A stretch of 64,000 bases of DNA from Aromatoleum evansii. GTDB lineage: Bacteria; Pseudomonadota; Gammaproteobacteria; Burkholderiales; Rhodocyclaceae. Of the stretch, positions 14,130 through 64,000 are shown one piece after another. The position numbers were made by a program, and so were the translations under genes. The stretch is taken from NCBI RefSeq assembly GCF_012910805.1, contig NZ_WTVK01000005.1, positions 1 through 64,000 of the forward strand, given 5' to 3'. Position 1 is the first letter of the stretch. The number at the start of each line of letters is the position of its first letter. The notes beneath the pieces are model-generated. The model was not told the DNA's origin, made no database searches, and saw only the letters and a program-made list of their open reading frames with translations.

Positions 14130-14335
14130 CGGCGGCGACATCTTCCGCATATCCGGCAGGAAGACCAGGCTTCAGCTGAAAAATGTAGTCTGGCCCCGAT
14201 TGTTCGCCGCATCGAGTTGCCCGGACGCTTGCATTGTGCAAGAGGCGAGACTTGACCCCAAGGACCTTCTACTGGCCTTCTACCGTGCACGGATCGGAGG
14301 AAAGGTGGACGCACTTCCCCTGTCGGACGTTGCCA

Positions 14336-15784
14336 TCAGCTTTTCGATCGCAGGAGGTTGCGGGCGATGGTGTAGCAGTGCAGCGCGACGGGCGAGAACT
14401 CGACGGTCATTCCATCGACCTCGGCGCTGCCGGTGTAACTGCGCGTCGTGACGAGCGGCTGGCGTGCCAGGGGATGTTTCGCCGCGAGCTCACGAAGTCC
14501 TCTGAGTTCCTGCAACTGCCCCGGAATCCGATCCGACCATTTGATTTCGACCGCAAAACGCGGCTTTTGCGTGCGCGGATCAATCGAGACGATATCGACC
14601 TCGAGTATCTGGCGACCGGATTTCCATCGTGCATAGTGCAGCGACTGACTGATAGCCGTGTCGTGCAACCACTGACTCCACACGGCCGTCTCGGCCAGAT
14701 TCCCCATCGCCTCGTCGTCCCCGCGGACGAAGCCGAATAGCGCAGCGCGTACCGACGGATTGGTCAAATAGACCTTGAAGGTGCGAGCGCGCTGCAGGCG
14801 AAGGGCGTTCTCGTCCACGCGATGGACGCGGCGGATGAGAAACGCTGCCTCGAGATACTCGAGGTACTCGGCCAGCCTCTGCTTGGAAATGTTCGAATGC
14901 TTCGACAGCGCTTCCAGACCAAGTTCGTCTCCCGTGTTGAATGCCAGGACATTGAAGAAGCGATTGAGCTCTTGTGTATCCGAGATCCCATAAAGACTGG
15001 GCAAATCCTTCAGCAGGACTTTGTCGATGATGTCCTGACGAAGGAAGCGCGACGGGTTCTCGCGCACTGCGGGGTTCATCACCGCCTCGGGAAAGCCGCC
15101 GTAGTTGAGGTAGTTGATGAACTCCTCGTTAAGGGCAGCGATGTCCGCGGCGAGGTATCGGCTGTTACCCGCTGCCTCGTCCTCGCGCTCATTGACGAGT
15201 TCGTCGCGCCCGGCAAAGCTGAGATACTCGGCAAAGGTCAGCGGCGGAAGGATGAACTCGGTGAAGCGGCCGGCACCCGATTCACGGCTTTTCATGCGCA
15301 GGGCGGCGGCCGCAGAGCCGCTCGCAATGAAGCGGATATTGGGGTAGGTATCGACCAGCGACTTGAGATGAACTTCCCAGTCCTTGAGGTACTGCACCTC
15401 GTCGAAAATGACCCAGAGCTGCTGGCCAGCGGGGTGCATATGTTGTTCGGTAAAGGTCCGGACGAGGCCCTCAAGGCTTCGTCCGGAGTAGAGTGGCGTG
15501 TCCAGCGAAGCGAAAAGGATGCGAACGCCCGGCACGCCTTCATCCAGGAGCCGCTGAACGAAGTGCTTGAGCATGACGGTCTTGCCGACCCGGCGGGGGC
15601 CGATGAGAACGACCGCACGTCGAACCCGGGTGTCCAGGGCCAGCCGGCAAAAGGGAGGGAAATAGGCCCGTCGGGGCCAACACGCCTCTTCGGGGTCAAT
15701 GCCCCCGCCCGCTCGCCACCACGGGTTGTCCAGGCTCAACCGCCGCTGCACCTCTTGTATAGGGATTTCAAGCCTGGATGCCAT
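14336..15784 (-). CDS. AAA ATPase with DUF4143 domain
   Basis: A 482-residue protein of the AAA_14/DUF4143 family. The N-terminal ATPase has Walker A LIGPRRVGKTVML, Walker B LWVIFDEVQYL and sensor FIASGSAAAALR. The C-terminal DUF4143 part (about residues 240-480) has a winged-helix-like segment (LSKHSNISKQRLAEYLEYL) and the FAVEIKWSD motif, which resembles a degenerate or real PD-(D/E)XK nuclease core. Such proteins are common and often mobile. Their function is not established. A few hundred bases upstream of the next gene suggest its own promoter. Confidence 0.85.
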   Translation of the reverse strand: MASRLEIPIQEVQRRLSLDNPWWRAGGGIDPEEACWPRRAYFPPFCRLALDTRVRRAVVLIGPRRVGKTVMLKHFVQRLLDEGVPGVRILFASLDTPLYSGRSLEGLVRTFTEQHMHPAGQQLWVIFDEVQYLKDWEVHLKSLVDTYPNIRFIASGSAAAALRMKSRESGAGRFTEFILPPLTFAEYLSFAGRDELVNEREDEAAGNSRYLAADIAALNEEFINYLNYGGFPEAVMNPAVRENPSRFLRQDIIDKVLLKDLPSLYGISDTQELNRFFNVLAFNTGDELGLEALSKHSNISKQRLAEYLEYLEAAFLIRRVHRVDENALRLQRARTFKVYLTNPSVRAALFGFVRGDDEAMGNLAETAVWSQWLHDTAISQSLHYARWKSGRQILEVDIVSIDPRTQKPRFAVEIKWSDRIPGQLQELRGLRELAAKHPLARQPLVTTRSYTGSAEVDGMTVEFSPVALHCYTIARNLLRSKS

Positions 15785-23152: not shown

Positions 23153-23169
23153 TGGCGCGCCCGAGACGA
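23153..23169 (-). repeat. tRNA-Arg 3'-end remnant / candidate attachment core (left copy)
   Basis: Plus strand TGGCGCGCCCGAGACGA. Read on the minus strand this is TCGTCTCGGGCGCGCCA, the 3' half of a T-stem, the acceptor strand CGGGCGC, discriminator G and CCA, as in tRNA-Arg genes with acceptor GCGCCCG/CGGGCGC. The T-loop sequence that should follow is absent. The first 13 bases recur at 28025-28037. Together with the flanking terminators this looks like an att-type direct repeat. Confidence 0.6.
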
Positions 23170-24019: not shown

Positions 24020-27000
24020 ATGTCCGATTCCATCGACTACTACGACCGGAACGCCGATCGCTTCTTCACGGAAACCGTCGATGTCGACATGACATCGCTG
24101 TATGGGCGCTTTCTGGCAACCATTCCGAAAGACGGTCTCATTCTGGATGCTGGCTGCGGATCGGGCCGTGATGCGAAAGCCTTCACCGACCGTGGCTACC
24201 GCGTCGCCGCCTTCGACGCATCGGCGGAGTTGGCGCGTCGTGCAAGCGCCTATGCCGGCCAACCCGTCGCCGTACGTGATTTTGCAGAGATCACCGAGAC
24301 GGCGTGCTACGACGGCATCTGGGCATGCGCGAGCTTGCTCCACTTGCGCGAGGCAGCCCTTGCAGACGCCATCGCTCGTCTGTGGCGCACACTCAAGAGC
24401 GGCGGCGTGTTCTACCTCAGCTTCAAACTCGGCGACGGCGAACGCATTCAGGACGGCCGCCACTTCACCGACGCCACTGATGCTCGCCTACGCAGCTGGG
24501 TCGACTCGCTTCCCGATCTCGACGCGATCGAAACATGGATCACGTCGGATCAACGCCCCGGCCGCAACGAACAATGGCTCAACGCGCTCGTCCGACACAA
24601 GCACTGCGGCCACGAGAAACTTGTCACCGGGGGTGAGCATCCCTTCCTGCCCCACCTGTGCGATGCGATTACCCAAGCCGACGAAATCGACATGGCCGTC
24701 GCCTTCATCAAGGTCACGGGCCTACGCCTGCTGCTACCCGATCTCCACGACGCGGTCAGTGCCGAAGCCGCGCCCTCCAGGAGACCGGCGCGCCTGCGAA
24801 TCGTCACGAGCGATTATCTCGATCTCACCGATCCGGAAGCCCTCCGGCTCCTGATGTTGCTACAGGAGCAGGGCGCGCAGGTCCGCGTGTTCGAGGCTAC
24901 GAGCTGCAGCTTTCACATGAAGGCCTATTTGTTTGCCCATTTCACGGATAACGGACAGCACGGAGGAGGCCTGCGTGGCACCGCTTTCATTGGTTCCAGC
25001 AACATCAGCCGGCAGGCGCTGAAGAACGGCCTCGAATGGAATTACCGCGTCGACTACCCCGGTGATAACGGATTTCTCGAAGCACGCGCGCGCTTCGAGG
25101 CCTTGTTCCACGACCCACGCACCATCGAACTCGACGACGCGTGGATCGACCGCTACGAAGCGCGGCGCATCCCGCCTCCACGCGCTATCGCCCCGGGGAG
25201 CACGGAGACCGAGCCCCCACCTACGCCCACTCCAGTGCAGCTCGAAGCCCTCGAAGCGCTCGCCGGCACGCGTCGTGAAGGCTACCGCCGTGGCCTCGTC
25301 GTGCTCGCCACGGGCCTGGGCAAAACCTGGCTCGCTGCCTTCGATGCGCACGCCTTCGGCGCGCGCCGCGTGCTGTTCGTCGCACACCGCGAGGAGATCC
25401 TCAATCAGGCGGCAGAAACCTTCCTGCGCATGCGGCCCAATGCGCGCATCGGCTTCTACAGGGGACAAACCCGGGACAGTCAGGTCGACGTGCTGTGCGC
25501 CTCGGTGCAGACGCTCAGCCGGGCAGCCCACCTGGAACGTTTCGCCGCACATCATTTCGATTACATCGTCATCGACGAGTTTCACCACGCGGCAGCCGCC
25601 ACCTACCGACGCCTGCTCAACTACTTCGCCCCGCGGTTCCTGCTCGGACTGACCGCAACGCCCGATCGCAGCGACCAGTCGGACATCCTCTCGCTGTGTG
25701 ACGACAATCTCATCTTCACCTGCAATCTGTTCGCGGGTATCGCCGCCGCGCTGCTCGTGCCGTTCCACTATTACGGCATTCACGACACCTCCGTCGATTA
25801 TCGCGAAATTCCGTGGCGCAACGGCCGCTTCGATCCCGAGCAGCTCGCCAACAAACTCGCCACCCTGGCACGGGCCCGACACGCGCTGAAACAGTGGCGC
25901 GATCGCGCACAGCAGCGCACTTTGGCCTTCTGCGCGTCCATCCGCCATGCGGAATACATGGCAGAGCAATTCGGCCGCGCCGGCGTGGCGGCCGCAGCCG
26001 TGTACGCCGGCTCGCACATCAGCCGTGCCGATGCGCTCGGTCGACTCGCCGATCGAAGCCTGCAGGTCATCTTCGCGGTCGACCTCTTCAACGAAGGTGT
26101 CGACCTGCCGGAGATCGACACTGTGATGATGCTGCGCCCGACCGAATCCAAGATCTTGTTCCTGCAGCAACTCGGCCGCGGCTTACGCAAAGCCGACGGC
26201 AAGGACAAGCTCGTCGTGCTCGATTTCATCGGCAACCATCACAGCTTCCTGCATAAACCGCAGGCACTCCTGGGAGTTGGCGCAAGTTACCGGCAACTCG
26301 CCGAGTTCGCCCGCAAGGTGGAGCAGGGGCGGCTAGCACTGCCTGATGGCTGTTTCGTCAATTACGACCTCGCGCTCATCGATTTCCTCAAATCGCTCGA
26401 CACCGATGGGGTCGCAAAGGAATTTGAGGCCCTGCGCAATGGCCTGGGAAGACGACCGACGCTGGCCGAGTTCTATCGCGCGGGGGCAAACGTCGCGGGG
26501 ATGCGCAGACAATACGGCAGCTGGTTCGAGTTCATCGCCACGATGGGCGAGCTCGCAGCGCACGAGGCGGACGCCGCGACCGCGCACCGCGAATTCCTCC
26601 GCGAAGTCGAAACGACAGCGATGACGAAGAGCTTCAAGATGGTGCTCCTCGAAGCGCTGCAGGAACTCGGCGGCTGGCGCACGCCCCCCGCTCTCACTGA
26701 ACTCGCATCGCGGTCCTGGCAAGTGCTGCAACGTCGCAGGCCGCTGCTGAGCGATCTCTCCGACGCCGTGCGCGCGGTGGGTGACGGCACTGCCGAATCC
26801 TGGCAGCGTTACTGGCGCGACAATCCCGTGAACGCCTGGGTCGGCGTCAAGCAGTCCGCAGGCTCGGCCACGTTCTTCCACGTTCGGGAACAACGCTTCG
26901 AACCGACCTTCGCAGTCATGCCGGAACACCACGACGTCTTCAGTGCGTTCGTTCAGGAACTCGTCGACTATCGACTCGCTGCGTATGAAGTACGACGCAT

Positions 27001-27883
27001 CACTAACACTGGCGGGACCAACGTCATCCCATTCAAGCGCGAGCGGCCGGAGCGCACCGAACTGGCATATTTTCCCAACCTTCGCATCGCCTGCGGCCAC
27101 TTCAGGACCGGCACGACGGATTCCGAAGAGCACCGCAGCCTCGGCAGCGGCTATGGTCGCCTGGACCCCGGACGTCATTTCATCGCCCGCGCGTCGGGCA
27201 ACTCGATGAACGGCGGCAAGAATCCGATCCGAGATGGCGACTACCTGCTGCTGGAGCTCATCACGCCAGGCAACGCGGGCTCGATCACCGGCACCATCAT
27301 GGCAATCGAAAGGCAGGACGAGGCAGGAGACAATCAATACCTGCTGCGCGTCGTATCGAAAATGTCCGACGGGACCTATGTCCTGAAGGCCAACAATCCC
27401 GACTACGATGACCTCGTCGCCACCGACAACATGCGCACACTGGCTCGCTTAAAGGCCGTCATCGACCCGCTGGAACTCGCAATCGGCGAAGCGTTCATGC
27501 GGGAAGACATCCCCGCGCTATTCGGGGAGACATTCAACCCGGGCAACTGGAACAGTGGGCACGTTGTGCTCGACGACGGTGCCACGCATGTCTTGCTCGT
27601 CACCCTGAACAAGCAGGGGAAGGCCGAGGATCATCGCTACCTCGATCACTGGATCGACGATCACAGCTTCCACTGGCAGAGCCAAAATTCAACAACGCCA
27701 GAGAGCAAGCGCGGCCGTGAACTCGTCGAACAGCGTCAGCGTAGCATCGTGATTCACCTGTTCGTACGCGACACGAAGCTCGCAGCAGGAAAAGCCGCAC
27801 CATTCGTGTATCACGGCCCGGTCAGCTACCGCAGTCATAGCGGCAGCGCGCCCATGAGTGTGATCTTCGACGTTGTCCGCTGA
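24020..27883 (+). CDS. Methyltransferase-PLD-SF2 helicase-S24-like-DUF3427 fusion protein
   Basis: A single uninterrupted 1287-residue chain. Residues 1-195: class I SAM methyltransferase (LILDAGCGSGRDAKAF). Residues 196-385: phospholipase-D-type nuclease domain with H299-M-K301 and GTAFIGSSNIS as HKD-like parts. Residues 405-790: SF2 helicase with Walker A LATGLGKTW, DEFHH (519-523), LTATPDRSD, then FNEGVDLPEID and QLGRGLRK. Residues about 1010-1140: S24/LexA-like fold (ARASGNSMN, IRDGDYLLLEL). The rest is DUF3427 (NPGNWNSGHVVL). PLD-helicase-DUF3427 proteins are restriction-like, phage-defence-linked enzymes. The methyltransferase at the front of the same chain is the unusual part and suggests modification and cleavage in one molecule, like a compact type ISP or IIG enzyme. 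It is bracketed by tRNA-Arg remnants together with hicAB. Confidence 0.88.
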   Translation: MSDSIDYYDRNADRFFTETVDVDMTSLYGRFLATIPKDGLILDAGCGSGRDAKAFTDRGYRVAAFDASAELARRASAYAGQPVAVRDFAEITETACYDGIWACASLLHLREAALADAIARLWRTLKSGGVFYLSFKLGDGERIQDGRHFTDATDARLRSWVDSLPDLDAIETWITSDQRPGRNEQWLNALVRHKHCGHEKLVTGGEHPFLPHLCDAITQADEIDMAVAFIKVTGLRLLLPDLHDAVSAEAAPSRRPARLRIVTSDYLDLTDPEALRLLMLLQEQGAQVRVFEATSCSFHMKAYLFAHFTDNGQHGGGLRGTAFIGSSNISRQALKNGLEWNYRVDYPGDNGFLEARARFEALFHDPRTIELDDAWIDRYEARRIPPPRAIAPGSTETEPPPTPTPVQLEALEALAGTRREGYRRGLVVLATGLGKTWLAAFDAHAFGARRVLFVAHREEILNQAAETFLRMRPNARIGFYRGQTRDSQVDVLCASVQTLSRAAHLERFAAHHFDYIVIDEFHHAAAATYRRLLNYFAPRFLLGLTATPDRSDQSDILSLCDDNLIFTCNLFAGIAAALLVPFHYYGIHDTSVDYREIPWRNGRFDPEQLANKLATLARARHALKQWRDRAQQRTLAFCASIRHAEYMAEQFGRAGVAAAAVYAGSHISRADALGRLADRSLQVIFAVDLFNEGVDLPEIDTVMMLRPTESKILFLQQLGRGLRKADGKDKLVVLDFIGNHHSFLHKPQALLGVGASYRQLAEFARKVEQGRLALPDGCFVNYDLALIDFLKSLDTDGVAKEFEALRNGLGRRPTLAEFYRAGANVAGMRRQYGSWFEFIATMGELAAHEADAATAHREFLREVETTAMTKSFKMVLLEALQELGGWRTPPALTELASRSWQVLQRRRPLLSDLSDAVRAVGDGTAESWQRYWRDNPVNAWVGVKQSAGSATFFHVREQRFEPTFAVMPEHHDVFSAFVQELVDYRLAAYEVRRITNTGGTNVIPFKRERPERTELAYFPNLRIACGHFRTGTTDSEEHRSLGSGYGRLDPGRHFIARASGNSMNGGKNPIRDGDYLLLELITPGNAGSITGTIMAIERQDEAGDNQYLLRVVSKMSDGTYVLKANNPDYDDLVATDNMRTLARLKAVIDPLELAIGEAFMREDIPALFGETFNPGNWNSGHVVLDDGATHVLLVTLNKQGKAEDHRYLDHWIDDHSFHWQSQNSTTPESKRGRELVEQRQRSIVIHLFVRDTKLAAGKAAPFVYHGPVSYRSHSGSAPMSVIFDVVR

Positions 27884-28024: not shown

Positions 28025-28037
28025 TGGCGCGCCCGAG
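28025..28037 (-). repeat. tRNA-Arg 3'-end remnant / candidate attachment core (right copy)
   Basis: Plus strand TGGCGCGCCCGAG, identical to 23153-23165, in the same orientation and again preceded by an intrinsic terminator. Read on the minus strand it is the acceptor strand, discriminator and CCA of a tRNA-Arg. The tRNA body is missing. With the left copy it brackets a segment of about 4.9 kb. Confidence 0.6.
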
Positions 28038-28181
28038 GCCTTCGGAGGGAACCCAATAACATTGATGCTATATGTACAAATTTTGGCCATACAGGTCTCT
28101 TTAGTGGAAAAACAACGCTTTCCAGCACATCCAAGAATGGTGGCATGATCGACTCCATTCCAATATTCATCGCACTAAGCC

Positions 28182-31100
28182 ATGTCGCACCTACTGGCTG
28201 CCCGCCAAACCCCAGACGTACGAACGACCTCTGCCCTCCCGCAGGGGTGGGGGCCGGCGCTTCGATGGGCAGAGGCTGGAGATTGCACTCCCTCTCTCCT
28301 GCTACTGGTGCACGCGTGCCGGATGCGCGAACATCCTCGGTGGTTCGGATCCGCCATCGCCGTTCTGGGGCGCCCACACTCACTTGAGCTCCTCCGTCTC
28401 TGGCAGCACGACGCACCCGAGCTTCACGCTCTTGCCGAACTCGCCGAGTACCTTACCACTCCGTCCGGCTCCTGGCTGCTGAACGAATATCCTCCCCTTT
28501 CGCCTGCGATCCCCGCCTCGAAGCACTTCCCCGGCAAGTTGTCCTGGGCGTACATGATCGCGCTGTTGACTCAGCGCGCCCCGATCGTCACCTCTCGGAG
28601 GGTTGGAAATGAGGCAATGGAACGCTGGTTCGAGCGGTTCCAGTTGTGGCTACTCGCGCACAGCGTGGTCCGATGCGTCGCAGGTCATCCACTAGACCGC
28701 CATATCCGGACGGCCGCCCAGTTCCTTAGGCTCGCGTCTGCCGACAATCCAAGATGGTTGGCGTTTGTGGAGCGGCTAGTCGCCGCGCTTCCCTCGCAGT
28801 TCGTGTCGATCAACCAGTATGTTGTTCGCCAAGCCCAACACATGCTGGCCAACCCCGAGGAGACCGAGCGAACCGAGCTCTCCGCATTGGGCAAGGTCGG
28901 CTCATGCGAAATCGGGGAAATTCAACTCGAAGCAGACGCCGATTGGAACCTGCCTGACTTTCCCGGCTGGCAGCCCGTATCTGATCCCAAAGCTTGTCCT
29001 GCCGAACCGCCACGCTGGCTCATCGATGACGATCTGCAACTTTCTGCGGTGCTTCTTGAGCCTCAACCGAACACCGATGGCACCGTTCAAGAAACGCTTC
29101 TGGGCTGCGATGCCGACCCCGAGGAAAACCTCACGCGGCAGCTCGGCAGCGCACACACGGTTCTGCTCCTCGGACGCGAGGAAGCACAGTTTCTGCCGTG
29201 GTCCTGGCAGCAGATGCTCCCGCATGAATACGCTGCTGTCGGATCCTGGATTAACGAGGCTTCCGTGGATGCGCCGACCAAGCCTCAACGCCTCCTTGCA
29301 GTACTGGTATGGCTTGCGATCACGACGCACCGCTCGCTCGAGCAGACGTTGGATATTCCGATAAGCGACAACGCCGCAGAAGACTGGGTATTGAGCGGCG
29401 CCTGCACCGACTTGCGACGGCGGCCCCCGCGGCCACGATCCGGATGGCGGGCGCAACCAACACACGCGGAACTCCTGGCGAGTCCCTGCTCGGAGCTCAA
29501 GATTTCCCTGCCCGACTGGGCAACATCGACACTTCAGGCACACACCGGTGCAGCTGCTCCTTCCGGGACGCTCAGACAGTACTGGCCTACAAACTGGGCC
29601 TCCGCCACGTCCTTGTTCCGGGATGCTGCCCGGGAAGCCGGGTTCAGCCGCGTCATGCCTTCGATGCTCGGGAGGTGGCTTCCAACCACGCTCTTCGCGG
29701 GGGGCAACGACGCGTTGTTCGCGGCAATGGCCTGCTCGCGTCCGAACAGCGGCCTACCTGGAGCAACCGCCTACCCCTCCTGGAGTGCTGGGTCAGTAGT
29801 CGACGCGTACGCAAGATGCGGCGTCGAACTGAGGACTGATTGCGAACCGGAATCGAACGCGCTCGGCAGTCACCTCAGTCCCATCGACGTCGCGCTGCGC
29901 CAGCAACTCCACAGTGCCGGCGCGAAACTGCGAGGTAGAGTCGCAGGGGGCATCTCGTTTGCCCTAAAGCATAATGCCTTTGCGTGCCACCTTGTCCTGC
30001 TGCTCCTTGCAGCAACCGGCAGCAGACCCGTCACCGACCCCTTCGAGTCGATCAGCCACTTCGACCTCGACAGGGGTCGTGTCTTCATTGCGGACAAACT
30101 CGCGGGCGTAAATCGCATGGGGCGACTCGTCCCGCTACCGACGTCAGTGACGAACTACATCAGGGAGACTTACCTCCCCTACCTGGAACGGCTCGCAGAA
30201 AACCTAAAGGCAACCCGACCGTGGCTGGCAGAGCAGATACGTGCGACGCAATCGCTGCACGCACCCCGCACCATGCCTTTCTTCTTCCTGCTGAGGGAAG
30301 ACGTGTCGGATTGGGTCTCCCTTTCGGAAAAGGCCATCGAGCTGGAGATCGGCGAGACGTTTGCGCTGCCACTGAACTGCTTCCGGCATCGCTACTCGCA
30401 GCGCTTGCGGCACAATGGCGCCGACCCTGAACTCATCGACTCACTGCTCGGACACGCATACGCGGGCTGTGTCACCCACGGAGATCATTCCTTACGGACG
30501 TGGGAACTCGACGTGCAACAGCTGCGCCCGGCGATCGAGGGGTTATTCGCGGATCTGGACGTTCAATGGCCCGAGCCGCCGAGCATAGACGCGGAAGCGC
30601 TGCCCCTCCGACCTTCGGCCCATTCCGGCGGTGCGATCCGAAACTTCGGGCTCGCTGCTCGCGAGGAAGCGCAGCGTCAGCGTCAAACCATCGGGCGGCG
30701 CCAGGCGCGGCAAGTGATGGAGAAGCATCTTCGCGGGCGCGAACTCCATCAACTTGATGACGAAGAGATAAACTCGCTCGAGCGGGAACTGCTGTTTATG
30801 CCGGGCGGACTTCCTCACGCACTCGGCGGTCTGCGCTACCGGTTCTACCTTCGAGTGGCCCAGCGCGTGGCGCGCCGAAAAAGCGTTCATCTGAAGCGCC
30901 GCCGCGTCTACGTTCCGCTGAACGAAGAGGTTCCGTTCTTTCGCGAATCAGCTGTCTGGGCTCAACAAGGGCGCGACATGCTGCGAGAGGGTCTGCCGCG
31001 ACTACGGCGTTTCAAGCCCCCCGCCAAAGCGAGCGTTGCAGATGCCGCGCTGATGTGCGCATTGCACCTGGCAGTCGAGAGTCGCCTTTCGAACCCGAAA

Positions 31101-33584
31101 ATCCTGTGGGCTTTGGAGCGCCCCGGCGCGACAAGGCTGATCTTCCATCAGCGTCGTTACTGGCTGGAATTCCTTCCAAACGTCACGGTGGATGAGGCGG
31201 AGGACGAGCCCCGGTCAGATCGCGCACCCACGGGAGCTCCAACGATACGACTACCGATGTCGCGTTCCGCTGCGACTTATTTCTCGCGCCTTAGGGCGAA
31301 GAAGGGGCGCCACCAATCGGACAACGCGCTCCTGGAGCGAATTTCCGATTTGCTGATTGATGCCGGCGCTCGTCACGAGGGCTACAACACGCGGGACATT
31401 GTTGCCGCGTTCACCGAGGTGACCGACCAAGCCAACGCTATCGAGCTCCCGGGCGCACTCGCCGCGTTCCTCGCAGGTCGTGTCGCTTCCTATAGTCTCG
31501 GTTGGCATGACCTCGTCCGCGTGGACACAGGCAAATTCCTCGCACTACCGTGCGAAGGCGAGGACGAGACCTGGCATGACTTGGCGATGGTCGAACGGGA
31601 AGCCAAGGTCGCCCCCACCGACAGACCGGCCCTGCAACAGCGTGTGCACGCATTCTTTCGTGCACTGAGGGAACATCTCGAGGCCTCCGACACCGGACCA
31701 CGTACCCACGCACGGCGCGACCTGGTCGGCAAACTCCGGTGGGAACTCAAGCGTTGCAGCCCTGATCTGCCATCGGCCATACGGATCGCGGGGGCCTGGG
31801 TTGCACATCTTGCCGCAACGGTTTCCAAGCTCTCCAGCGTCAGGCGTTACTTCAATACGCTCTCCGGAGCAATCGAAGACGTGTGGTACGACGAGGAGCT
31901 CGTCGGCGCCGACGAGGAGGAACTCACCGAGTTGTACAGGCAGATCCTCGAAGTGCGCACCGACCGTGACCTGTCGATCGTCGGCAAGCAACTCCACCGC
32001 TTTCACGCCTTCGCACGCGAGCATTTTGCCTTGGTGGAGCCATATTGGGACGAATTGCCAATACCCCCCAGAGGTGCTCAGGTATCCGCCGGCTACATCC
32101 GCGAAACGGATTATGTTCGTGCACTTGCGCTGCTTTCCAAGAGAGCCCTTCCAGCCGGGGAGCAATGCATTGCGTGCAGTATCCTGATTCTGTGCTATCG
32201 CTTCGGGCTTCGGGCTGGCGAGGCTTTTGCACTGCAGCGGGAGGATTGGGTCGAGTTGGGCGCAGAAACCTATATTGCCGTCCGCAACAATCGTCACCGC
32301 AAACTGAAAACACAGGCATCCAGGCGGCTCGTTCCCCTCCTCTTCGACCTGACGGAGCCGGAGCGTACCTCCATAAAGCAGGCACTCGCGACTAGCGAGG
32401 CGGATGCCGGCGACACCGCTGCGGCGCCCCTCCTCGGAGCGGCCTCAGTGTCCGGTGCCCGCCGTCGAGTGATTCACCGCGAAATCATTCGCGCCCTGCG
32501 GCAAGCCACCACTAGCCCAAGCACGACCCTGCACCATGCCAGGCACACGTTTGCCATGCGGGTTCTCGACGGCCTGCTCTCAGGCTATCCGTCGTACCGG
32601 TCGGTCCTGCCGGATCCATCGCCGCACGCCATCGCACACCACCTCCTGGGAGCGCCAGGTTCTACTCGACGTACCTTATGGGCACTCGCCCGCATCCTGG
32701 GCCACGCCGGGCCTTCAACCACTTTGACGAGTTACATCCACGTCCTGGATCGTTGGGCCGAATCGTTCGCCGATCCCGCCGTTCGCCGTCCCGTGAAGCA
32801 CCGGATGCTCGCCTGCGACGATCTCGACAGCCTTCCCCGGCAGCGCGGCAGCCTACACACTCCGGAAGCGCCAACGCCGCGCAGTCCAGGTTGCCGGGAT
32901 CTCCTTCGACTGCTAAGGCTGTTGGCGCGTGGCACCCCATGGCAAGCGGCGTCCCGTCACCTCGATTTGGAGGAGTCGGGCTGCGCTCGCATTTACCAAG
33001 CGCTATTGTGCATTTCGAGACACCACAGCACCCCGAAAATCAGCAATGAGGAGGCGGCCCGACTTCTGCTCGGTGCCGTCACGGAGGAGCAGTGGAAAGC
33101 GTTGTTGTCCTGTGCCGAGCGGATCGACGCCCTCTGCCCTGCCTGGCCGTCCGATCTGGAGGCGCCGACCTCCGCCAGCGTCGCATCGCTCATAAGCCGC
33201 CAACGCCAAGTCTTGCTCGCGAAGCCGGCCCATTTTGTGTGGATGCGCCTGTTCCTCGACGCGGCGACCATCGACGGCTCGCACTACGAACTCACGGCCA
33301 CCGCCCCCGAACATCCCAACCTCCGCGAGTACGCGAAGGAACAGCAGTTCACTATCAGACCCCGCACGGACGTGACCAAGGGTGGCAACCCATTTCAGAT
33401 CGATCCGCTCACGCTTGACGACGGATTCAGCACGGTCAGCCACCGCTGCGCTCTGATCTTCAAGGAGAACCGAAGTTTCGCGATCCGAAACCGGATTGGA
33501 TTCGCTCTCCTGCTGCTCTGTTGGGCGGAAGGGGGCGCTAAAACAGCGGGAAAATCGCCTTTTAAGAGCGCACATTCGAGTTGA
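28182..33584 (+). CDS. Giant protein with two tyrosine-recombinase-like domains
   Basis: An open frame of 1800 residues. The second domain (about 1270-1530) keeps every catalytic residue of tyrosine recombinases: R1344 in FGLRAGEAF, a basic beta-turn (RHRKLKTQASRR), H1451-x-x-R1454 in LHHARHTF, H1508 in ILGHAGPSTT and nucleophile Y1518 in TSYIHVLDRW. The first domain (about 560-790) has the same fold pattern but is degenerate: R615 in TGSRPVTD and R735-H736 in NCFRHRY are present, Asn732 replaces the box-II His, H758 is present, and no Tyr follows. Residues 1-550 and 1570-1800 match nothing I recognise. It probably acts as the integrase/excisionase of a mobile element, with the dead domain for structure or DNA binding. 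It starts 145 bp past the right tRNA-Arg remnant, as an integrase should. A small companion gene follows. Confidence 0.8.
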   Translation: MSHLLAARQTPDVRTTSALPQGWGPALRWAEAGDCTPSLLLLVHACRMREHPRWFGSAIAVLGRPHSLELLRLWQHDAPELHALAELAEYLTTPSGSWLLNEYPPLSPAIPASKHFPGKLSWAYMIALLTQRAPIVTSRRVGNEAMERWFERFQLWLLAHSVVRCVAGHPLDRHIRTAAQFLRLASADNPRWLAFVERLVAALPSQFVSINQYVVRQAQHMLANPEETERTELSALGKVGSCEIGEIQLEADADWNLPDFPGWQPVSDPKACPAEPPRWLIDDDLQLSAVLLEPQPNTDGTVQETLLGCDADPEENLTRQLGSAHTVLLLGREEAQFLPWSWQQMLPHEYAAVGSWINEASVDAPTKPQRLLAVLVWLAITTHRSLEQTLDIPISDNAAEDWVLSGACTDLRRRPPRPRSGWRAQPTHAELLASPCSELKISLPDWATSTLQAHTGAAAPSGTLRQYWPTNWASATSLFRDAAREAGFSRVMPSMLGRWLPTTLFAGGNDALFAAMACSRPNSGLPGATAYPSWSAGSVVDAYARCGVELRTDCEPESNALGSHLSPIDVALRQQLHSAGAKLRGRVAGGISFALKHNAFACHLVLLLLAATGSRPVTDPFESISHFDLDRGRVFIADKLAGVNRMGRLVPLPTSVTNYIRETYLPYLERLAENLKATRPWLAEQIRATQSLHAPRTMPFFFLLREDVSDWVSLSEKAIELEIGETFALPLNCFRHRYSQRLRHNGADPELIDSLLGHAYAGCVTHGDHSLRTWELDVQQLRPAIEGLFADLDVQWPEPPSIDAEALPLRPSAHSGGAIRNFGLAAREEAQRQRQTIGRRQARQVMEKHLRGRELHQLDDEEINSLERELLFMPGGLPHALGGLRYRFYLRVAQRVARRKSVHLKRRRVYVPLNEEVPFFRESAVWAQQGRDMLREGLPRLRRFKPPAKASVADAALMCALHLAVESRLSNPKILWALERPGATRLIFHQRRYWLEFLPNVTVDEAEDEPRSDRAPTGAPTIRLPMSRSAATYFSRLRAKKGRHQSDNALLERISDLLIDAGARHEGYNTRDIVAAFTEVTDQANAIELPGALAAFLAGRVASYSLGWHDLVRVDTGKFLALPCEGEDETWHDLAMVEREAKVAPTDRPALQQRVHAFFRALREHLEASDTGPRTHARRDLVGKLRWELKRCSPDLPSAIRIAGAWVAHLAATVSKLSSVRRYFNTLSGAIEDVWYDEELVGADEEELTELYRQILEVRTDRDLSIVGKQLHRFHAFAREHFALVEPYWDELPIPPRGAQVSAGYIRETDYVRALALLSKRALPAGEQCIACSILILCYRFGLRAGEAFALQREDWVELGAETYIAVRNNRHRKLKTQASRRLVPLLFDLTEPERTSIKQALATSEADAGDTAAAPLLGAASVSGARRRVIHREIIRALRQATTSPSTTLHHARHTFAMRVLDGLLSGYPSYRSVLPDPSPHAIAHHLLGAPGSTRRTLWALARILGHAGPSTTLTSYIHVLDRWAESFADPAVRRPVKHRMLACDDLDSLPRQRGSLHTPEAPTPRSPGCRDLLRLLRLLARGTPWQAASRHLDLEESGCARIYQALLCISRHHSTPKISNEEAARLLLGAVTEEQWKALLSCAERIDALCPAWPSDLEAPTSASVASLISRQRQVLLAKPAHFVWMRLFLDAATIDGSHYELTATAPEHPNLREYAKEQQFTIRPRTDVTKGGNPFQIDPLTLDDGFSTVSHRCALIFKENRSFAIRNRIGFALLLLCWAEGGAKTAGKSPFKSAHSS

Positions 33585-33633: not shown

Positions 33634-34395
33634 ATGGAAAACCAGAATCAGTATTTTGTTATCGTCGCAGAGTCGCCCTACCCAATCGCATTGTTGGACA
33701 GCGAGCTCGCAATCCAGTGGGATGCAATGCCGGCGGGGATCTCGGACGTCTGCAGCGACCTCCGAGATCTACTCGTCGCCTTGGGCGCGGTTGACCAGCA
33801 CGAATCTTGGGTACCATTCCTAAAGCTCGACAAATCGATTGGCTACCCTGCAAAAAAAATTCGTCTGCAAAACGGCGCCAGCACGAGATGTACTCAGGCC
33901 ATCGCGGCGTACGCCAGAGGGATCAGAGGGGAAGAGAGCACTTCGCTATATCTCGAGCCTGATCTTGAGCCCGCCCAGGCCGACATGGCCCTTATCGAAG
34001 ACGCAGTACTTAGAACGCAAAAATCATGTGGTGGAGATTTACTCGCCGTTCCCCTGAACCTATCGTCGGGCGGCAACGATGTGTGCCAGATATCGGGAAA
34101 AATCGCCAAGTTTCGGAAACTTCCACCGGTTCCGCAATCCGATCTCAAGCAGATCATTGCTTACGTCGACGAACCGTCGATGAAAAATCATCGGTTAATG
34201 GCGAGACCCCTGGACGGCTCTAGTGCGATGTCACTGAACATCGATACACGGAAATTCTTCGACCGGATCTGCGCCGCAATGAACGGGCCCTGTCCGTGCA
34301 TCTTGACTGTTCAGGAGCAGCTCGACGGCAACGAAAAACTTGCGCACGTCGTCGTCGACCTCGAACTTCATAGAGGCTTCGACAGACTGACTTAG
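33634..34395 (+). CDS. Unknown protein downstream of the giant recombinase
   Basis: A 253-residue soluble protein from the ATG at 33634 (MENQNQYFVIVAESPYP). The GTG at 33619 is an alternative. I recognise no family. It has no signal peptide, membrane helix or cysteine cluster. Hydrophobic beta-strand and helix patches alternate, and a KLPPVPQSDLKQIIAYVDEP segment is present. It starts 49 bp after the recombinase stop on the same strand and is less GC-rich than that gene. I infer a mobile-element companion of the recombinase. The 285 bp after it hold only a G-rich tract. Confidence 0.6.
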   Translation: MENQNQYFVIVAESPYPIALLDSELAIQWDAMPAGISDVCSDLRDLLVALGAVDQHESWVPFLKLDKSIGYPAKKIRLQNGASTRCTQAIAAYARGIRGEESTSLYLEPDLEPAQADMALIEDAVLRTQKSCGGDLLAVPLNLSSGGNDVCQISGKIAKFRKLPPVPQSDLKQIIAYVDEPSMKNHRLMARPLDGSSAMSLNIDTRKFFDRICAAMNGPCPCILTVQEQLDGNEKLAHVVVDLELHRGFDRLT

Positions 34396-34573: not shown

Positions 34574-34591
34574 GGGGGGGAGGGGGGGGGG
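34574..34591. repeat. Poly-G tract (G7-A-G10)
   Basis: Seven G, one A, ten G in the intergenic space between the unknown gene and the HNH gene. The tract is very unusual in this window. It could be a slippage-prone spacer or a G-quadruplex former, or partly a sequencing artefact. No gene reads through it. Confidence 0.9.
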
Positions 34592-34680: not shown

Positions 34681-35547
34681 TTAGCCGAGCGGGCTATCTG
34701 GAACCCGGCCGGGCATCGAAAGCCTTTCAGCCAACCAAGTCAGCACGATTGGATCTAGCAGGCCGGAAACGAAGATTGAGTTCCAGTTATTCTTACCCTT
34801 GTGCAAGTCGTCCAGGGCGTCACGCTCCTCTTCGAGCAGGGCCTGAACCTGGTCTTGCGTCGCGATGTTTTCGGCAAGAGCACGCACCACCCGACTGGGT
34901 TTGCGAAACAGCGAACTCCATCGATCAGCCAAGTACCGTACAACGGCTGTCCTTTGAATAATTGACCGGAAGTGGAAGTTGATTGCCGAATGCTGAGGAT
35001 GCGTGTTCGAAATCATCAGCACGACAGAGACCCTCGGCACCTCGCCCAAGTCCTCGAAACGAGCGCTCACCAGTCGCTCACCGAGACAGTCATCGAAGTA
35101 CGGGTGCAAGACACGCTCGCCCGGGTTGGCACCCAGTAGCGTCTCCTTGCGTTTGCTGTTGCACTTGCAAGCAGGAACCAAGTTCTTTGAAAAGACGGAG
35201 AAAATTGGAAATCCGTTCTTCGGCAGGTAGTGATCCAGCGTCCCGCTATGCATCGACCCACACATTGGGCACACCAAGTGTTCTGTAGACTCCCGCATCT
35301 TGGTGATGTGTTCCAAATCTGTCGGAGGGGACGCGTAGTGTCCCTTCAGGAAGGCTGCCGCAGTTGCTGAGATTGGCTGATTATGTACAAGCGTCGGTGC
35401 GCCGTTGACGGCCATATACTGATCGTAGCTTGCTTGGACCGTTCCGACCAAAGGCTGAAGCTGCGGATAGCTGCCTAGCCGATTGTTCTTCGACAGTTTG
35501 TCAAACGCAGCCGAGTCATCGTACGCGGGCAACTGCACTTTGTTCAT
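34681..35547 (-). CDS. HNH endonuclease of a Septu-like pair
   Basis: A 288-residue protein with a zinc-stabilised HNH nuclease: C93PMC96, then LDHYLPK (D105-H106), N122 in SKNLVPAC, and C127-K-C129-N130 before KRKE. VLHPYFD follows, a motif often seen behind such HNH domains. The C-terminal half is helical and uncharacterised. Its start overlaps the stop of the ABC-type ATPase by 4 bp, so they are translated together. An ATPase followed by an HNH nuclease is the gene order of the Septu anti-phage system (PtuA/PtuB). The assignment is by architecture only. Confidence 0.82.
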   Translation of the reverse strand: MNKVQLPAYDDSAAFDKLSKNNRLGSYPQLQPLVGTVQASYDQYMAVNGAPTLVHNQPISATAAAFLKGHYASPPTDLEHITKMRESTEHLVCPMCGSMHSGTLDHYLPKNGFPIFSVFSKNLVPACKCNSKRKETLLGANPGERVLHPYFDDCLGERLVSARFEDLGEVPRVSVVLMISNTHPQHSAINFHFRSIIQRTAVVRYLADRWSSLFRKPSRVVRALAENIATQDQVQALLEEERDALDDLHKGKNNWNSIFVSGLLDPIVLTWLAERLSMPGRVPDSPLG

Positions 35548-37202
35548 GGGCGCCCTTTGCCCTCAATTGCCGCGCGAAGTCCATTCAACATCTCTAACGA
35601 AAGTTCGTCCTTGTATTCCTCATAGATCTGTGGCCAAGGAGCCCCCTTCGCAGTCAATCTTCGCTCGACTTCTCCGGCCAACTTTGACGGCTCATCCTCC
35701 CCGAACACGAAGTAGGAAATCGCACCCACTTCAGCGCCAAAGGTTCGCAACTTCGGTTGCTGCGCTTGCACCAAGCTCTCGCTGTCCACGCTCAATACTG
35801 TAACCTGCTCGCGGAATACCTCGCGCACGAAGTACACCGAGTGTGTTGCGATAATGGCCGCGGACCCGGTCGCCTCTAGCAGACCGTCCAAGAGCGAAAC
35901 GAACCTATTGATGAAGTTCGGGTGAAGGTGCGTTTCTGGCTCATCAAGCAGTAGCAGTGAGCCGTTCTCAATATGCAAGCTGACCTGAGCTGCAAACTTG
36001 AGAAACGAAATCTCTCCGCTGCTCAGGGGGTAGCCCTTGCCGTCCACTACGCGCACAGGCTCCTTCTTGACGTCGATCGAAGCGAAGCGCTCTAGGACAC
36101 GTTGCTCTGCTCCCTTGGGTAGCTTGGCCAGCGGCACGTAGGCGCCCAATGTTGAGCGAGTCGGAAGATGAAGTTCGTCCGCCTTGGTAATGGCACTGAG
36201 CGCTTCGGTGAATATTTCCCACCGCGACTTTGACGCAACCATTTGCCTAGATCTGGCAACCTGCACGATCAGGTCGGATAAATAGTCATTTCGGCGCGAT
36301 CGGCGCGACCGATTCATCGAGTACCGCCGGTACCAAATTCTCGGCCACTTTCTCTTGTCCGTTGGGAAAACTGATTCGGCCTCGTTCGTTGGCGCAAAAG
36401 CGAGCAGCCGGTTTATCAGCGGTCGCCCGCCATCGGTCCCGTCCGTGAGGGCTGCTGTTCCGTCGATGGCAGCGCGTGCAATGCGGCCTAGTGTCTGGCT
36501 CTTGCCAACACCGTTCTTCCCAATGACAACGGCGATACGCTTCGGCAGGTCAGCGGAATGGTCGAAGCTGAATCTGAGATCGTGCTCGTTCTGTCGCCCC
36601 GGCAACTGAAACCGAATTGCCAACGTCGGTGACAAGATGCCCGTCTGCTCGCTTGAAAGCCCTCGTAGTAGCGGGCCTGCGTTTTTGTATGCGAAGTAGG
36701 AGTCTGTGCTTCGCATAAAGGACAGTGAGAACACCTCCGATTGGACTGCCAGATCAAGAATGTCCGCGGTCGACTCAAATTCGTTCAAGGTCACTAGGTC
36801 GTTTAACGCGGTTAGCACTTCCGTTGCGTCGCTAGCATCGAGTATTTGGACGAGTCTCCGATAAGCCTCCATGTCTGGCAGCATCGTGAAGAAGCGGTGG
36901 TCGGGCGTTGCTGTGACCGTTAGCTCACCCAGGGGCGAGATCAACTGCTTCAGTAAATCCTTGCCGTTCTGTTCTGTATCCGAATTTATGAACCCGATGA
37001 AGCCGCTTGCATCAACAAGCTCTCTAGCCGAACGCATGCGAATCCGGTAGCTAACACGCGTGTGATGGCCGAAGTCGTTCCATCCGTCTGACGACGGCAC
37101 GACGAGGATGGTATCCGGCGGCAAGTCCATTTCCAGCGCCTCACGCCGCCCAAAGAGGACACGTAAGCGAGGGGGGCCACTCTCGGTCGATTGCTTCTGC
37201 AC
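35544..37202 (-). CDS. ABC/SMC-type AAA ATPase of a Septu-like pair (PtuA-like)
   Basis: A 552-residue ATPase. An N-terminal region of about 200 residues has no recognised motif. Walker A follows (IGKNGVGKSQTL, residues 227-238), then a long insert, the ABC signature YPLSSGEISFLKFA, Walker B LLLLDEPETHLHP, and the H-loop IIATHSVYFV. The C-terminal tail of about 90 residues lacks a Toprim acidic cluster, so it is not an OLD nuclease. It probably senses phage and controls the HNH partner encoded next. The start is GTG at 37202 with AGGA upstream. 559 bp of non-coding sequence precede it. Confidence 0.83.
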   Translation of the reverse strand: MQKQSTESGPPRLRVLFGRREALEMDLPPDTILVVPSSDGWNDFGHHTRVSYRIRMRSARELVDASGFIGFINSDTEQNGKDLLKQLISPLGELTVTATPDHRFFTMLPDMEAYRRLVQILDASDATEVLTALNDLVTLNEFESTADILDLAVQSEVFSLSFMRSTDSYFAYKNAGPLLRGLSSEQTGILSPTLAIRFQLPGRQNEHDLRFSFDHSADLPKRIAVVIGKNGVGKSQTLGRIARAAIDGTAALTDGTDGGRPLINRLLAFAPTNEAESVFPTDKRKWPRIWYRRYSMNRSRRSRRNDYLSDLIVQVARSRQMVASKSRWEIFTEALSAITKADELHLPTRSTLGAYVPLAKLPKGAEQRVLERFASIDVKKEPVRVVDGKGYPLSSGEISFLKFAAQVSLHIENGSLLLLDEPETHLHPNFINRFVSLLDGLLEATGSAAIIATHSVYFVREVFREQVTVLSVDSESLVQAQQPKLRTFGAEVGAISYFVFGEDEPSKLAGEVERRLTAKGAPWPQIYEEYKDELSLEMLNGLRAAIEGKGRP

Positions 37203-43962: not shown

Positions 43963-44132
43963 CGGACATCGTGAGCAAACAGGTCGCTGGCGGTCGATGA
44001 TGCGTAACGCCCGCGCTCGGGGCTGAGAGCGCACCGCAGGCAGAGCACTCGCGCACTGCTACACATTCGCCCAAACACAAGACATGCCCCACCGATCGCC
44101 TTTGCCGATAAACTCTGTTTCATATGCCGTTG

Positions 44133-44152
44133 GTGAATGCCGCATTATTCAC
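44133..44152. promoter_or_regulatory. Inverted repeat upstream of the ankyrin-sigma gene
   Basis: GTGAAT-(8 bases)-ATTCAC, a perfect dyad about 55 bp before the proposed sigma-factor start. It is in the position of an operator for the MORC/Z1 operon. Inference only. Confidence 0.4.
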
Positions 44153-44206
44153 ATGCCTGTCATGGGTTGCGCCCCTCTCGGACCGCAACCGGAATATCTA
44201 GAGGAA

Positions 44207-61731: not shown

Positions 61732-62694
61732 CTAAACAGCCGGTCGGACGGCAAAGGGTCTCGCCCCGAGATGCGGGTGGTAGCGAGCGAATCCAATGTC
61801 CGGCGGGATGTGGCGACCAATCAGATCGCTCCGCGTCAAACGCCCGTCCGCAAACTGCAGGATGGTCGCGTCGAGGCTTTGCGGCTCGCGCAGGCCCACG
61901 TTGGGCGGCACTCCCTTGGCACTGGTGAGCGCATGCATGAGCGCCAGGTAATCCGCGTCAGACACGATGACGCGATGACATGCACGGGCGACGGCGATCC
62001 ATTCGACGACCGTGTGGCGATAACCGACAAGGCGACCACGCGCGGAAAGCTCGACGTGTCCGCCGGCGAGGCGGTACTCGTCGGCCTTGCCGGCGTCATG
62101 CAGCAAGCTCGCGAGGATCAGCACCTGCATGTGCGCCGCGGGGTAAGCGGCCGCAACCTCCATGGCCCGCCCAGCGACATCGATGCTGTGTCGCAGGTTG
62201 CCATTTCGGACATGATGGTCGCCGTTGATTGCACTCGGCCCCTCCACGAAGCGGCGAAAACGCCCGCCGTCCCAAAAGATCGCATTGAAGAGGTGCTGGA
62301 ACCCGCGCGGCAACTCCTTCCACAGCGCGGCTCCGCGTTTGGCGAGTTCGCGATCACGCAGCCACCGATGGGGGATCGTATCGAAGAGATTCAGCGCGGG
62401 GACAGGCTTTTCGATGAGCACGAGGCGCGCAATGCGCACTGCACCATCGAAGGTGACCGCCCGGCCGGACCAGCGGATCGAAACGAGACTGCCCACGGTG
62501 AGACGCACATCCGGGTGCTGCGACAGCCATTCGACCCGGATCGTTGCCCGCTCATGAAAGAGCGTTGCGCACGTGCGGATGGCCTTGGCGTCGAATGGCA
62601 GACGTGCGATCGACTGGATGCGGAAGACCAGCGGCAGCCTCTCGACGAGGAGATCCTTCGCGGCGCTGGGGACAGGAAGTTGTTGCTCATTCAT
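61732..62694 (-). CDS. HD-domain phosphohydrolase with N-terminal OB-like domain (mobile-element type)
   Basis: A 320-residue protein from the ATG at 62694, overlapping the integrase stop by 8 bp. Residues 1-110 look like an OB fold (LTVGSLVSIRWSGRAVTFDGAV). The HD domain shows RHSIDVAGRAMEV, LILASLLHDAGKADEY with the HD pair, and ARGRLVGYRHTVVEWIA. This arrangement resembles YhaM-type 3'-5' exoribonucleases and the HD proteins that accompany integrases or MobH relaxases in genomic islands. The coupling to the integrase suggests an element function. Confidence 0.8.
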   Translation of the reverse strand: MNEQQLPVPSAAKDLLVERLPLVFRIQSIARLPFDAKAIRTCATLFHERATIRVEWLSQHPDVRLTVGSLVSIRWSGRAVTFDGAVRIARLVLIEKPVPALNLFDTIPHRWLRDRELAKRGAALWKELPRGFQHLFNAIFWDGGRFRRFVEGPSAINGDHHVRNGNLRHSIDVAGRAMEVAAAYPAAHMQVLILASLLHDAGKADEYRLAGGHVELSARGRLVGYRHTVVEWIAVARACHRVIVSDADYLALMHALTSAKGVPPNVGLREPQSLDATILQFADGRLTRSDLIGRHIPPDIGFARYHPHLGARPFAVRPAV

Positions 62695-63949
62695 GGCAGT
62701 TCTCCTCGGTTTGCGCAGCATCGACAGCGACGACATCGAGCGGTTTGTCGGCGATCGCGCCCGTGATGAGGCGCTCGAAAGCCGAGCCGTCACGCCGCGT
62801 GAGGTTGGGGACGTAGCGGCTATAGACGCGGAAGAGCATCTCCGTGGTGGTATGCCCGAGTTGCCGCGCGATCCACTCGGGTGACTCTCCGGCTGCGAGC
62901 CAGAGGGTCGCGGCGGTATGCCGGCACTGGTATGGGCGTCTCGGTTTGAGGCCGAGATGCCGCAGCAGCGGGTACCACACGCGCTGAGTGACGTTGCGGT
63001 GCTCGAGCGGTTTGCCGTGCCGGTTGCAGAAGACGTAAGGCGAGAGCTTCCCGGTGGCCGCGTGCTGGCGTTCGAGCGCTTCGAACACAAGCAGGCTCAT
63101 CTGGATCTCGCGCTGGCTACCGTCGGTCTTGGTGTATTCGTCCTCGCCATTGACTACGGTCTCGCGCACGAGGATGAGGCGCCGATCGAAGTCGACGTAT
63201 TTCCACTTGAGGCCATCGACCTCGCCGGTGCGCATCCCGGTGAAGAAGCGCACCGTGAAGTAGTCGCGGAAGTCCGGGCGCACCGTCTGGAGGATGAGTT
63301 TGACCTCCTCGATCGAAAACGGCTCGACATCGACACGCTTGATGCGCAGCTGTTTGATACTGTCGAAGGGCGTGCGAAAATCGAATCGGTCGGCCGCTTC
63401 GTTGAGGATCTGGCGCAGCGGATTCAGCATCTTGTTGATCCGTGCCGCAGACAGAGTGGTTCGCTTGCCCCGCGCGGTGACTTTGCCGAGTTCGGCGCGG
63501 TAGGCAAGTACGTCAGCCTTGGTGATTCTGCCGACCTCCGTCTCCCCGAAACGCGGGATCAGGCACAGGTCGAGCGCGCGGCGCATCGTGGTGCGATAGC
63601 TCCTGCGCCACTCCACCTCCTTCTCCGCGTACCAGATCTCCGCGAAGTCGCGGAAGAGCGGTGTTCCAGGCACGGACGACGCTGCGGAGCCCTTCAGTTC
63701 CGTGGCGACGGTGCTCGCTGCCGCCGGCTGCGCATCGAACTTCGCCGCGTTGCGGCTCGCCGGGAAGTAACGGCGGTAGTCGAAGGTGCCGGCAGCGATG
63801 TCGGCTTCGATCCGTTCAAGCACCTTCTGCAGGCGCTTGCGGTTCGTCTGGTTGTCGGACAGTGCGGTTTGTTCCCTGCACCGAACATCCCGAAAACGGA
63901 AGTCCAAGAACAACAGCCCGTTGTCTTTCCGACAGCGGATGCTACCCAT
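62687..63949 (-). CDS. int: Phage-type tyrosine integrase
   Basis: A 420-residue integrase from the ATG at 63949 (GGAGGGG upstream; an ATG at 63964 is less likely). The N-terminal arm-type domain is GSIRCRKDNGLLFLDFRFRD (DUF3596-like), then a SAM-like core-binding domain (FRDFAEIWYAEKEVEW). The catalytic domain has Arg in FFTGMRTGEVDGL, Lys in EYTKTDGSQRE, box II PYQCRHTAATLW (Tyr in place of the first His, Arg and His kept), His in ARQLGHTTTEM and nucleophile Tyr in FRVYSRYV. It should integrate a genomic island. The att site is not in the window and probably lies past the right end. Confidence 0.93.
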   Translation of the reverse strand: MGSIRCRKDNGLLFLDFRFRDVRCREQTALSDNQTNRKRLQKVLERIEADIAAGTFDYRRYFPASRNAAKFDAQPAAASTVATELKGSAASSVPGTPLFRDFAEIWYAEKEVEWRRSYRTTMRRALDLCLIPRFGETEVGRITKADVLAYRAELGKVTARGKRTTLSAARINKMLNPLRQILNEAADRFDFRTPFDSIKQLRIKRVDVEPFSIEEVKLILQTVRPDFRDYFTVRFFTGMRTGEVDGLKWKYVDFDRRLILVRETVVNGEDEYTKTDGSQREIQMSLLVFEALERQHAATGKLSPYVFCNRHGKPLEHRNVTQRVWYPLLRHLGLKPRRPYQCRHTAATLWLAAGESPEWIARQLGHTTTEMLFRVYSRYVPNLTRRDGSAFERLITGAIADKPLDVVAVDAAQTEENCHE

Positions 63950-64000
63950 GGCAGACCCCTCCATTTGCCATCGGAATCGCGAAAGACTGCTCGGACGCGC

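Follow-up and report, generated by a model that had tools for sequence, protein, structure and literature searches.

In the genome of Aromatoleum evansii we have found a gene whose single 1,800-residue product carries two domains related to tyrosine recombinases (YRs), an earlier one that appears to be catalytically dead and a later one that looks catalytically active. The gene is probably a natural fusion of a two-component module, in which a pseudo-recombinase that would hold DNA and not cut it (N-terminal half) is joined to a large active YR (C-terminal half). It resides in a stretch of 64,000 nucleotides (contig NZ_WTVK01000005.1, positions 1 to 64,000), referred to below as the window, whose features are listed in Table 1. 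In the literature that we searched, a YR pair fused in this way is nowhere described. Such fusions are also unmentioned in what we could draw on of a survey of YRs (PMC8138268), the main text of which lacks the words "inactive" and "fusion".

Table 1. Features of the window that bear on the giant recombinase gene.
Feature	Coordinates	Strand	Basis or remark
First tRNA-Arg 3'-end remnant, outer end of the island	23153..23169	+	All 17 bp match the intact tRNA
Second tRNA-Arg remnant, 132 bp before the ATG	28025..28049	+	3'-terminal 13 bp of the tRNA, followed by 12 bp matching the anticodon arm
1,800-aa fusion of a dead YR half and an active-looking YR half	28182..33584	+	Single ORF; Pfam Phage_integrase 1.9e-9
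Predicted pseudo-recombinase domain, residues 550-809	29829..30608	+	26-row alignment, PDB profile, AlphaFold, VIA
Active-looking YR catalytic domain, residues ~1309-1523	32106..32750	+	Pfam PF00589, PHROG integrase, residue counts
C-terminal extension past the catalytic Tyr, residues ~1524-1800	32751..33581	+	Long post-YR stretch also in split relatives
253-aa downstream ORF, candidate accessory gene	33634..34395	+	Lacks a meaningful family match
Arm-domain integrase next to the intact tRNA-Arg	62687..63964	-	Pfam Arm-DNA-bind_2 5.2e-22, Phage_integrase 2.6e-18

The open reading frame starts with ATG and runs through 1,800 codons with no internal stop. Its halves are alike in GC content by codon position (0.675/0.499/0.697 for residues 1-870 and 0.670/0.501/0.696 for residues 871-1800). 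An initial annotation, made from the sequence alone, had described a 1,800-residue protein with one active and one dead YR domain, and this description was borne out by the single frame and by both folds. The same annotation had considered that the gene might really be two genes separated by stops; the frame is uninterrupted here, though many relatives do have two genes. The ORF that follows gave nothing at a meaningful level in a family scan. The idea that it represents a shared downstream third gene was rejected, since the candidates compared (L010, L072, L080 and L081) reach 13-22% identity to the first row, and homology was not accepted. In the gap after this ORF (34574-34591) lies a run of seventeen G interrupted by one A.

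The C-terminal half can be placed, by its sequence, in the tyrosine recombinase superfamily: it carries an R-K-H-R-H-Y set in a YR fold, and activity is predicted. The Pfam Phage_integrase model (PF00589) matches the protein above its gathering score (E 1.9e-9), with the best stretch at residues 1309-1461 and a second stretch also counted within the protein; a PHROG integrase match spans residues 1333-1523, and a profile of the C halves searched against solved structures retrieved YRs down to E 1.1e-11. The catalytic set is complete (R1344, K1376, H1451, R1454, H1508 and Y1518), R1382 also being present, and the five of these residues named in the initial annotation (R1344, H1451, R1454, H1508, Y1518) are all where it had placed them. 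In an alignment of 25 C halves, from which the short-contig loci as well as L008, L076 and L080 were left out, Y1518, R1454 and K1376 are invariant (25/25), while R1344 and R1382 are each found in 23 rows, H1508 in 22 and H1451 in 18, with Tyr instead in four. In four of the 25, at least two of the six catalytic residues are changed relative to the window protein, three of these C halves coming from fused proteins (L079, L081, L082) and one, perhaps misaligned, from a split pair (L072). The C halves of relatives share 13-22% identity with the window protein. AlphaFold produced no usable model of the active part (mean pLDDT only 35). On the residue pattern, the later domain looks catalytically active.

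The earlier domain retains R615, K639, R648, R735 and H758, its box-II His is replaced by Asn732, and it has no Tyr at the usual place. The initial annotation had listed Arg615, Arg735, His736 and His758 as kept and the box-II His and the Tyr as missing; these residues are all in place and both absences stand, with the qualification that H736 directly follows the box-II Arg and must not be taken for the box-II His. In an alignment of 26 dead domains, R615, K639, R648 and R735 are each conserved in every row and H758 in 25. The box-II column contains Asn in 22 rows and His in none, and the usual Tyr position, nine residues after H758, is never occupied by Tyr (0/26), stray Tyr residues occurring at +8 in two rows and at +11 in seven. 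These domains share 17-35% identity with that of the window. The alignment omits four of the 23 matches from the order-level search described below, namely L053, L055 and L056 (among the four lowest-scoring) and L041 (the window itself); L042 and L043 show no difference over the rows compared. Most rows were retrieved with a profile, and part of this conservation therefore reflects the mode of retrieval. With the box-II His and the nucleophilic Tyr missing at their usual positions in all 26 domains, the N-terminal half does not appear to be an active YR, and these comparisons support the view that its dead state is a conserved feature of the family and not decay. A Ser at +12 after H758 is kept in 25 of the 26 domains; in the boldest form of the doubtful extension given further below, this residue might give the "dead" half some chemistry of its own.

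Several lines of analysis indicate that the N-terminal half has the fold of a YR catalytic domain. A profile of the 26 aligned dead domains, searched against the PDB, matched XerD (E 1.5e-9) and an archaeal Xer protein (1.9e-7), and all four matches better than 0.01 were Xer proteins. The XerD model TIGR02225 scored far under its curated cut-off on the 1,800-aa protein (2.7e-6), its best stretch (711-759) falling in the dead domain. NCBIfam and PHROGs searches with the whole protein gave generic YR matches only, and a PDB search with the single 1,800-aa sequence returned nothing meaningful. AlphaFold was run on residues 550-809 with three sequences (the window and two loci); the best of five models had a mean pLDDT of 71.9 and a pTM of 0.77, and the other four were poor (46-50). 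VIA-align superimposed this model on the archaeal Xer structure 4a8e over 168 residues (Z 13.4, rmsd 2.9); helical folds can give Z values up to about 13, and here the sequence profile agrees with the fold. In a Foldseek search the top 19 rows were YRs or type IB topoisomerases, with low TM-scores and none at E <=0.001. The profile, the AlphaFold model and the VIA alignment thus answer the doubt raised in the initial annotation that residues 560-790 might have no recombinase fold. Descent of both halves from one duplication is not claimed, the alignment of dead and active profiles being weak (probability 9.6, E 0.0033).

Apart from one phage repressor complex (9rgl, SroF-Sar, Z 6.3), the 50 VIA rows listed were all recombinases or topoisomerases sharing their fold. 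MrpR-type phage repressors have a recombinase fold. The dead half could accordingly be read as a targeting or regulatory DNA-binding domain and not as a protomer of the synapse, the C halves alone carrying out symmetric recombination; the retention of R, K, R, R and H with loss of the His and the Tyr would also suit this role. We regard this reading as rather unlikely, because the pocket retained is fuller than DNA binding alone seems to require, and the two halves are adjacent or fused in the loci read, which favours a fixed stoichiometry.

Relatives of the gene occur in two forms. None of the 16 other genomes of the same genus carries it, and a search of 60 other genomes with the full protein found two relatives, both through the C half: one a fused frame of 1,798 aa (G040), the other split into genes of 842 and 1,083 aa (G024). 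Searched with dead-domain profiles, 17 of 399 genomes of the order gave a total of 23 matches (E up to 1e-6), and 28 of 297 family genomes, for which the 26-row alignment was used, gave 32 (E up to 1e-8), the genome under study being included in both counts. Of the fused forms in the family set, those in G776, G665 and G790 come nearest to the window protein. As this genome (G000) is the sole matching genome common to both sets, there are 54 distinct matches. Classified by the size of the open frame, as fused (at least 1,500 aa) or split (650-920 aa), the order-level matches comprise 10 of fused size, 10 of split size and three of other sizes, and the family-level matches 17, 10 and five, respectively, which makes 26 fused-size and 20 split-size among the distinct matches. 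All 10 aligned fused-size rows of the order set have Tyr in the Y1518 column.

Among the 10 split-size rows of the order set, a large second gene follows immediately 3' in eight; in one the contig ends there, and the remaining row is a short contig (L063). The catalytic motif of the second gene was checked in six of those eight loci. The split pairs (dead + active, aa) measure 840+1,098, 862+1,059, 837+1,041, 887+1,102, 863+1,023 and 860+1,067, with two further pairs of 899+1,060 (the second gene cut by the contig end) and 664+935. For the family-level split-size rows, the reading of loci covered G024. Plasmids also carry split pairs, of 744+996 in Vibrio, 739+1,015 in Ketogulonicigenium, and 756+1,063, 726+1,020 and 759+1,062 codons in Acinetobacter. 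In every split locus read, including G024 and the plasmid records, the gene for the dead half precedes a large second gene, and the former is frequently annotated as hypothetical (Ketogulonicigenium and Acinetobacter records). In one locus (L066; 775 + 1,320) the break lies elsewhere, upstream of the dead domain, and in Sphingobium the upstream gene, of 306 aa, looks on visual inspection like the final part of a dead half.

The relatives that bear names belong to the Alpha-, Beta- and Gammaproteobacteria. A scan of named genome contigs with the whole protein revealed no relative and one with a three-row alignment two, of which one is a Zoogloea metagenome-assembled genome (L100) with just a 1,161-aa frame at that place. 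A phage origin was considered and rejected, as two scans of viral contigs gave no relative.

In several split loci (L005, L007, L068, L070, L072 and L073) a small gene of about 170-320 aa stands before the dead gene. Several of these small genes share, by eye, a ParB-like GFRxF pattern, and Pfam searches with three of them gave no support for a ParB-like reading. The small upstream gene of several split pairs is absent beside the fused gene of the window, and therefore the unit present here may be truncated. A search for inverted repeats near the gene found no element ends, the best 19-bp pairs having four mismatches, as against three to five in 20 shuffles. Taking into account these absences, and the fact that the island described below has an integrase of its own, the giant protein might be a nonfunctional relic or passenger, moving nothing now. 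We hold this possibility to be about as unlikely as that of a targeting or regulatory dead half: 1,800 stop-free codons, a full catalytic set and a codon-position GC pattern that stays even throughout speak against a relic.

Our preferred reading, the fused two-component module, suggests a way of working. At each core site the dead half would occupy one half-site and the active half would cut the other, and a synapse of two molecules would thus contain two cutting and two non-cutting protomers. One strand would then be exchanged per site, and replication or repair would complete the move. The fold, the residues and their conservation, and the existence of both gene forms come from the data; DNA binding by the dead half, the geometry of the tetramer, the exchange of one strand and mobility itself are what we infer. 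Going further, such proteins could form a distinct class of mobile elements in which the entire transposase is one giant protein, the fusion forcing half-dead synapses, one-strand exchange and copy-out, and which spread defence genes with no second active recombinase; we consider this extension doubtful, slightly more so than either of the alternatives weighed above.

The gene lies in an island bounded by tRNA-Arg sequences. The initial annotation had noted a tRNA-Arg remnant, and two copies do exist within the window (starting at 23153 and 28025), the second having the appearance of a 3'-end piece joined to an anticodon-arm piece, as if the intervening part had been deleted. The intact tRNA-Arg(CCG) lies just beyond the window (contig 64688-64764), and ARAGORN and Rfam detected no tRNA within the window. 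With one mismatch allowed, about two occurrences of the 12-base tRNA motif would be expected in the window by chance; both copies match it exactly, the identity continuing to 13 and 17 bases, and genome-wide there are 8 exact occurrences against 3 for a reversed control. The statistical case for the remnants is modest, and the reading therefore rests also on their position. Beside the intact tRNA lies an Arm-domain integrase, which we take to be of the P4 type and whose frame could start as far out as contig 64081. An integrase adjoining an intact tRNA, together with a repeat of the tRNA 3' end at the far end, is what characterizes a tRNA island; both are present here, and it is likely that this integrase drives the island.

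The initial annotation had instead connected the giant protein with the tRNA-Arg remnant, suggesting that a built-in pseudo-protomer could allow asymmetric or directional recombination there. On such a reading the giant protein would itself insert the entire island at tRNA-Arg, with the direction set from within. Its ATG does lie 132 bp from a remnant, and the sharing of an island may be a habit, because dead-active pairs in two other loci (L075, L073) are also found within a few kb of an Arm-domain integrase. Nevertheless, the connection is not supported: the remnants pair with the intact tRNA, and the Arm-domain integrase that adjoins it, at the far end of the island, can account for the island unaided, which leaves this proposal highly improbable. 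With the tRNA repeats explicable by that integrase, the giant protein is most readily viewed as cargo or as a nested element. It may mark the left end of such an element, within a tRNA-Arg island that is rich in defence genes and probably moved by the separate integrase.

The two remnants, 4.9 kb apart, enclose hicA, hicB and a gene for a 1,287-aa methyltransferase-PLD-helicase restriction enzyme. The latter protein (24020-27883) has methyltransferase, PLD nuclease, ResIII/Helicase_C, S24-like and DUF3427 regions, and its top PADLOC match is mREase_IV (2e-116). On the other side of the giant gene there is a PDC-M01A/PDC-M01B candidate defence pair (34681-37202, minus strand), and further along (44084-53912) a cluster encoding a sigma-70-like protein with N-terminal ankyrin repeats, an unusual fusion, together with HATPase, Z1, DUF4420 and AIPR proteins; this cluster is presumably an MZA-type defence system.

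The surroundings of the relatives are more varied. Arm-domain integrases occur within a few kb of the dead-active pair, as in the island of the window, at L073:13730-15127 and L075:2302-3615. Conflict genes near other relatives (L074:12206-14605, L070:3023-6349 and 13704-14903, L085:1-2345) include TOTE primase-helicase, HEPN_Swt1-DUF499, DUF6791-ThiF and Cas3/Cas1f genes. Among 10 neighbours of relatives that were scanned, two were of conflict type and the others were an efflux pump, an Arm-domain integrase, signalling, helicase or metabolic genes, or were unmatched; with two of 10, we do not propose that the family as a whole is tied to defence.

Several mobile systems use more than one YR. 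In Tn554 (TnpA-TnpB-TnpC) and in RIT elements, as in our proposal, several YRs act together. According to PMC10214605, TnpA and TnpB keep the motif or the catalytic Tyr, as do all three YRs of the archetypal RIT, so that there is no dead partner, and RITs consist of three active YRs of about 315-410 aa. The gene described here, one 1,800-aa protein with one domain dead, was accordingly not assigned to the RITs.

The gamma-mobile-trio (GmtX/Y/Z), with which a comparison had been suggested in the initial annotation, resembles our case in having a large YR and occurring in defence-rich islands, as far as the text at hand (PMC12715929) describes it. The comparison did not lead to a match: no Gmt NCBIfam model is among the matches of the 1,800-aa protein (E up to 1), and none by that name matched ten related proteins (E up to 0.1). 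The models concerned are NF040693 (GmtY) and NF040692, which is printed as recomb_assoc and which we take to be GmtX. The genome of A. evansii contains one sub-threshold GmtY match (9.9e-5), as do most genomes. In size, too, the systems differ from the giant protein, the GmtY model having 441 positions and the sole locus above the cut-off containing genes of 441, 908 and 200 aa, of which the last two are, by their position, presumably GmtZ and GmtX.

GInt islands (ginABCD) have three separate YR-type genes and ginD, and GinC has a YR fold that lacks catalytic residues, according to the portion of PMC5385486 used here. The likeness lies in a multi-YR unit with a dead member of YR fold, and in islands with cargo. 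GinC is, however, described as lacking the Tyr (PMC10214605) and also the first Arg (PMC5385486). By contrast, R615 is kept here in 26 of 26 domains. Having two YR domains in one gene, and not three YR-type genes plus ginD, the present gene was not classed as a GInt.

Among known systems the closest is the Tfp-IntB pair of the SEs (strand-biased circularizing elements), a likeness of architecture set against descriptions of the SE proteins. As reported in the accessible text of PMC10214605 and PMC9345347, these elements carry intA-tfp-intB-srap, and their ends are 13-19 bp imperfect inverted repeats with a 6-bp footprint. The dead YR-fold protein Tfp is encoded directly before IntB, an active YR whose N-terminal part is exceptionally long, the two being operon-coupled (PMC10214605). 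There are differences. The dead and the active YR, separate in SEs, form one polypeptide here, and nothing was recognised as Srap, the 253-aa downstream ORF having no meaningful family match. Tfp is described, in what we could draw on, as lacking the RHRY motif, while the dead half here keeps R, K, R, R and H. The SE authors did not detect Tfp or Srap in either the Alpha- or the Betaproteobacteria, and the present family has relatives in the Alpha-, Beta- and Gammaproteobacteria. A second active YR comparable to IntA was not found, the adjoining ORFs that were scanned giving no integrase match and the single further integrase detected in the window lying about 29 kb downstream on the opposite strand; with no IntA-like gene, the fused protein is not assigned to the SEs. 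No SE operon was seen in the annotation of pAQU1 (150 of 204 kb, in three stretches).

Dead partners encoded in operons whose genes are required for recombination are thus already represented by Tfp and GinC (PMC10214605, PMC5385486, as far as these sources were available), and tfp could not be knocked out by the SE authors, as the part of PMC10214605 at hand reports. Why a dead recombinase should be required in SE and GInt elements is the question that the fused protein addresses, as a single chain would fix the stoichiometry of dead to active domains, and the role of the dead half could be tested by point mutations in one gene. Dead-plus-active recombinase pairs evidently occur beyond the SEs described so far. 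The tfp-intB order is repeated in the present family, often fused, a dead YR fold preceding a large active YR. From the descriptions available, SEs appear to exchange one strand per site with a dead Tfp and a large IntB. We propose the same for the fused protein, for which one-strand or directional recombination is, by this analogy, plausible.
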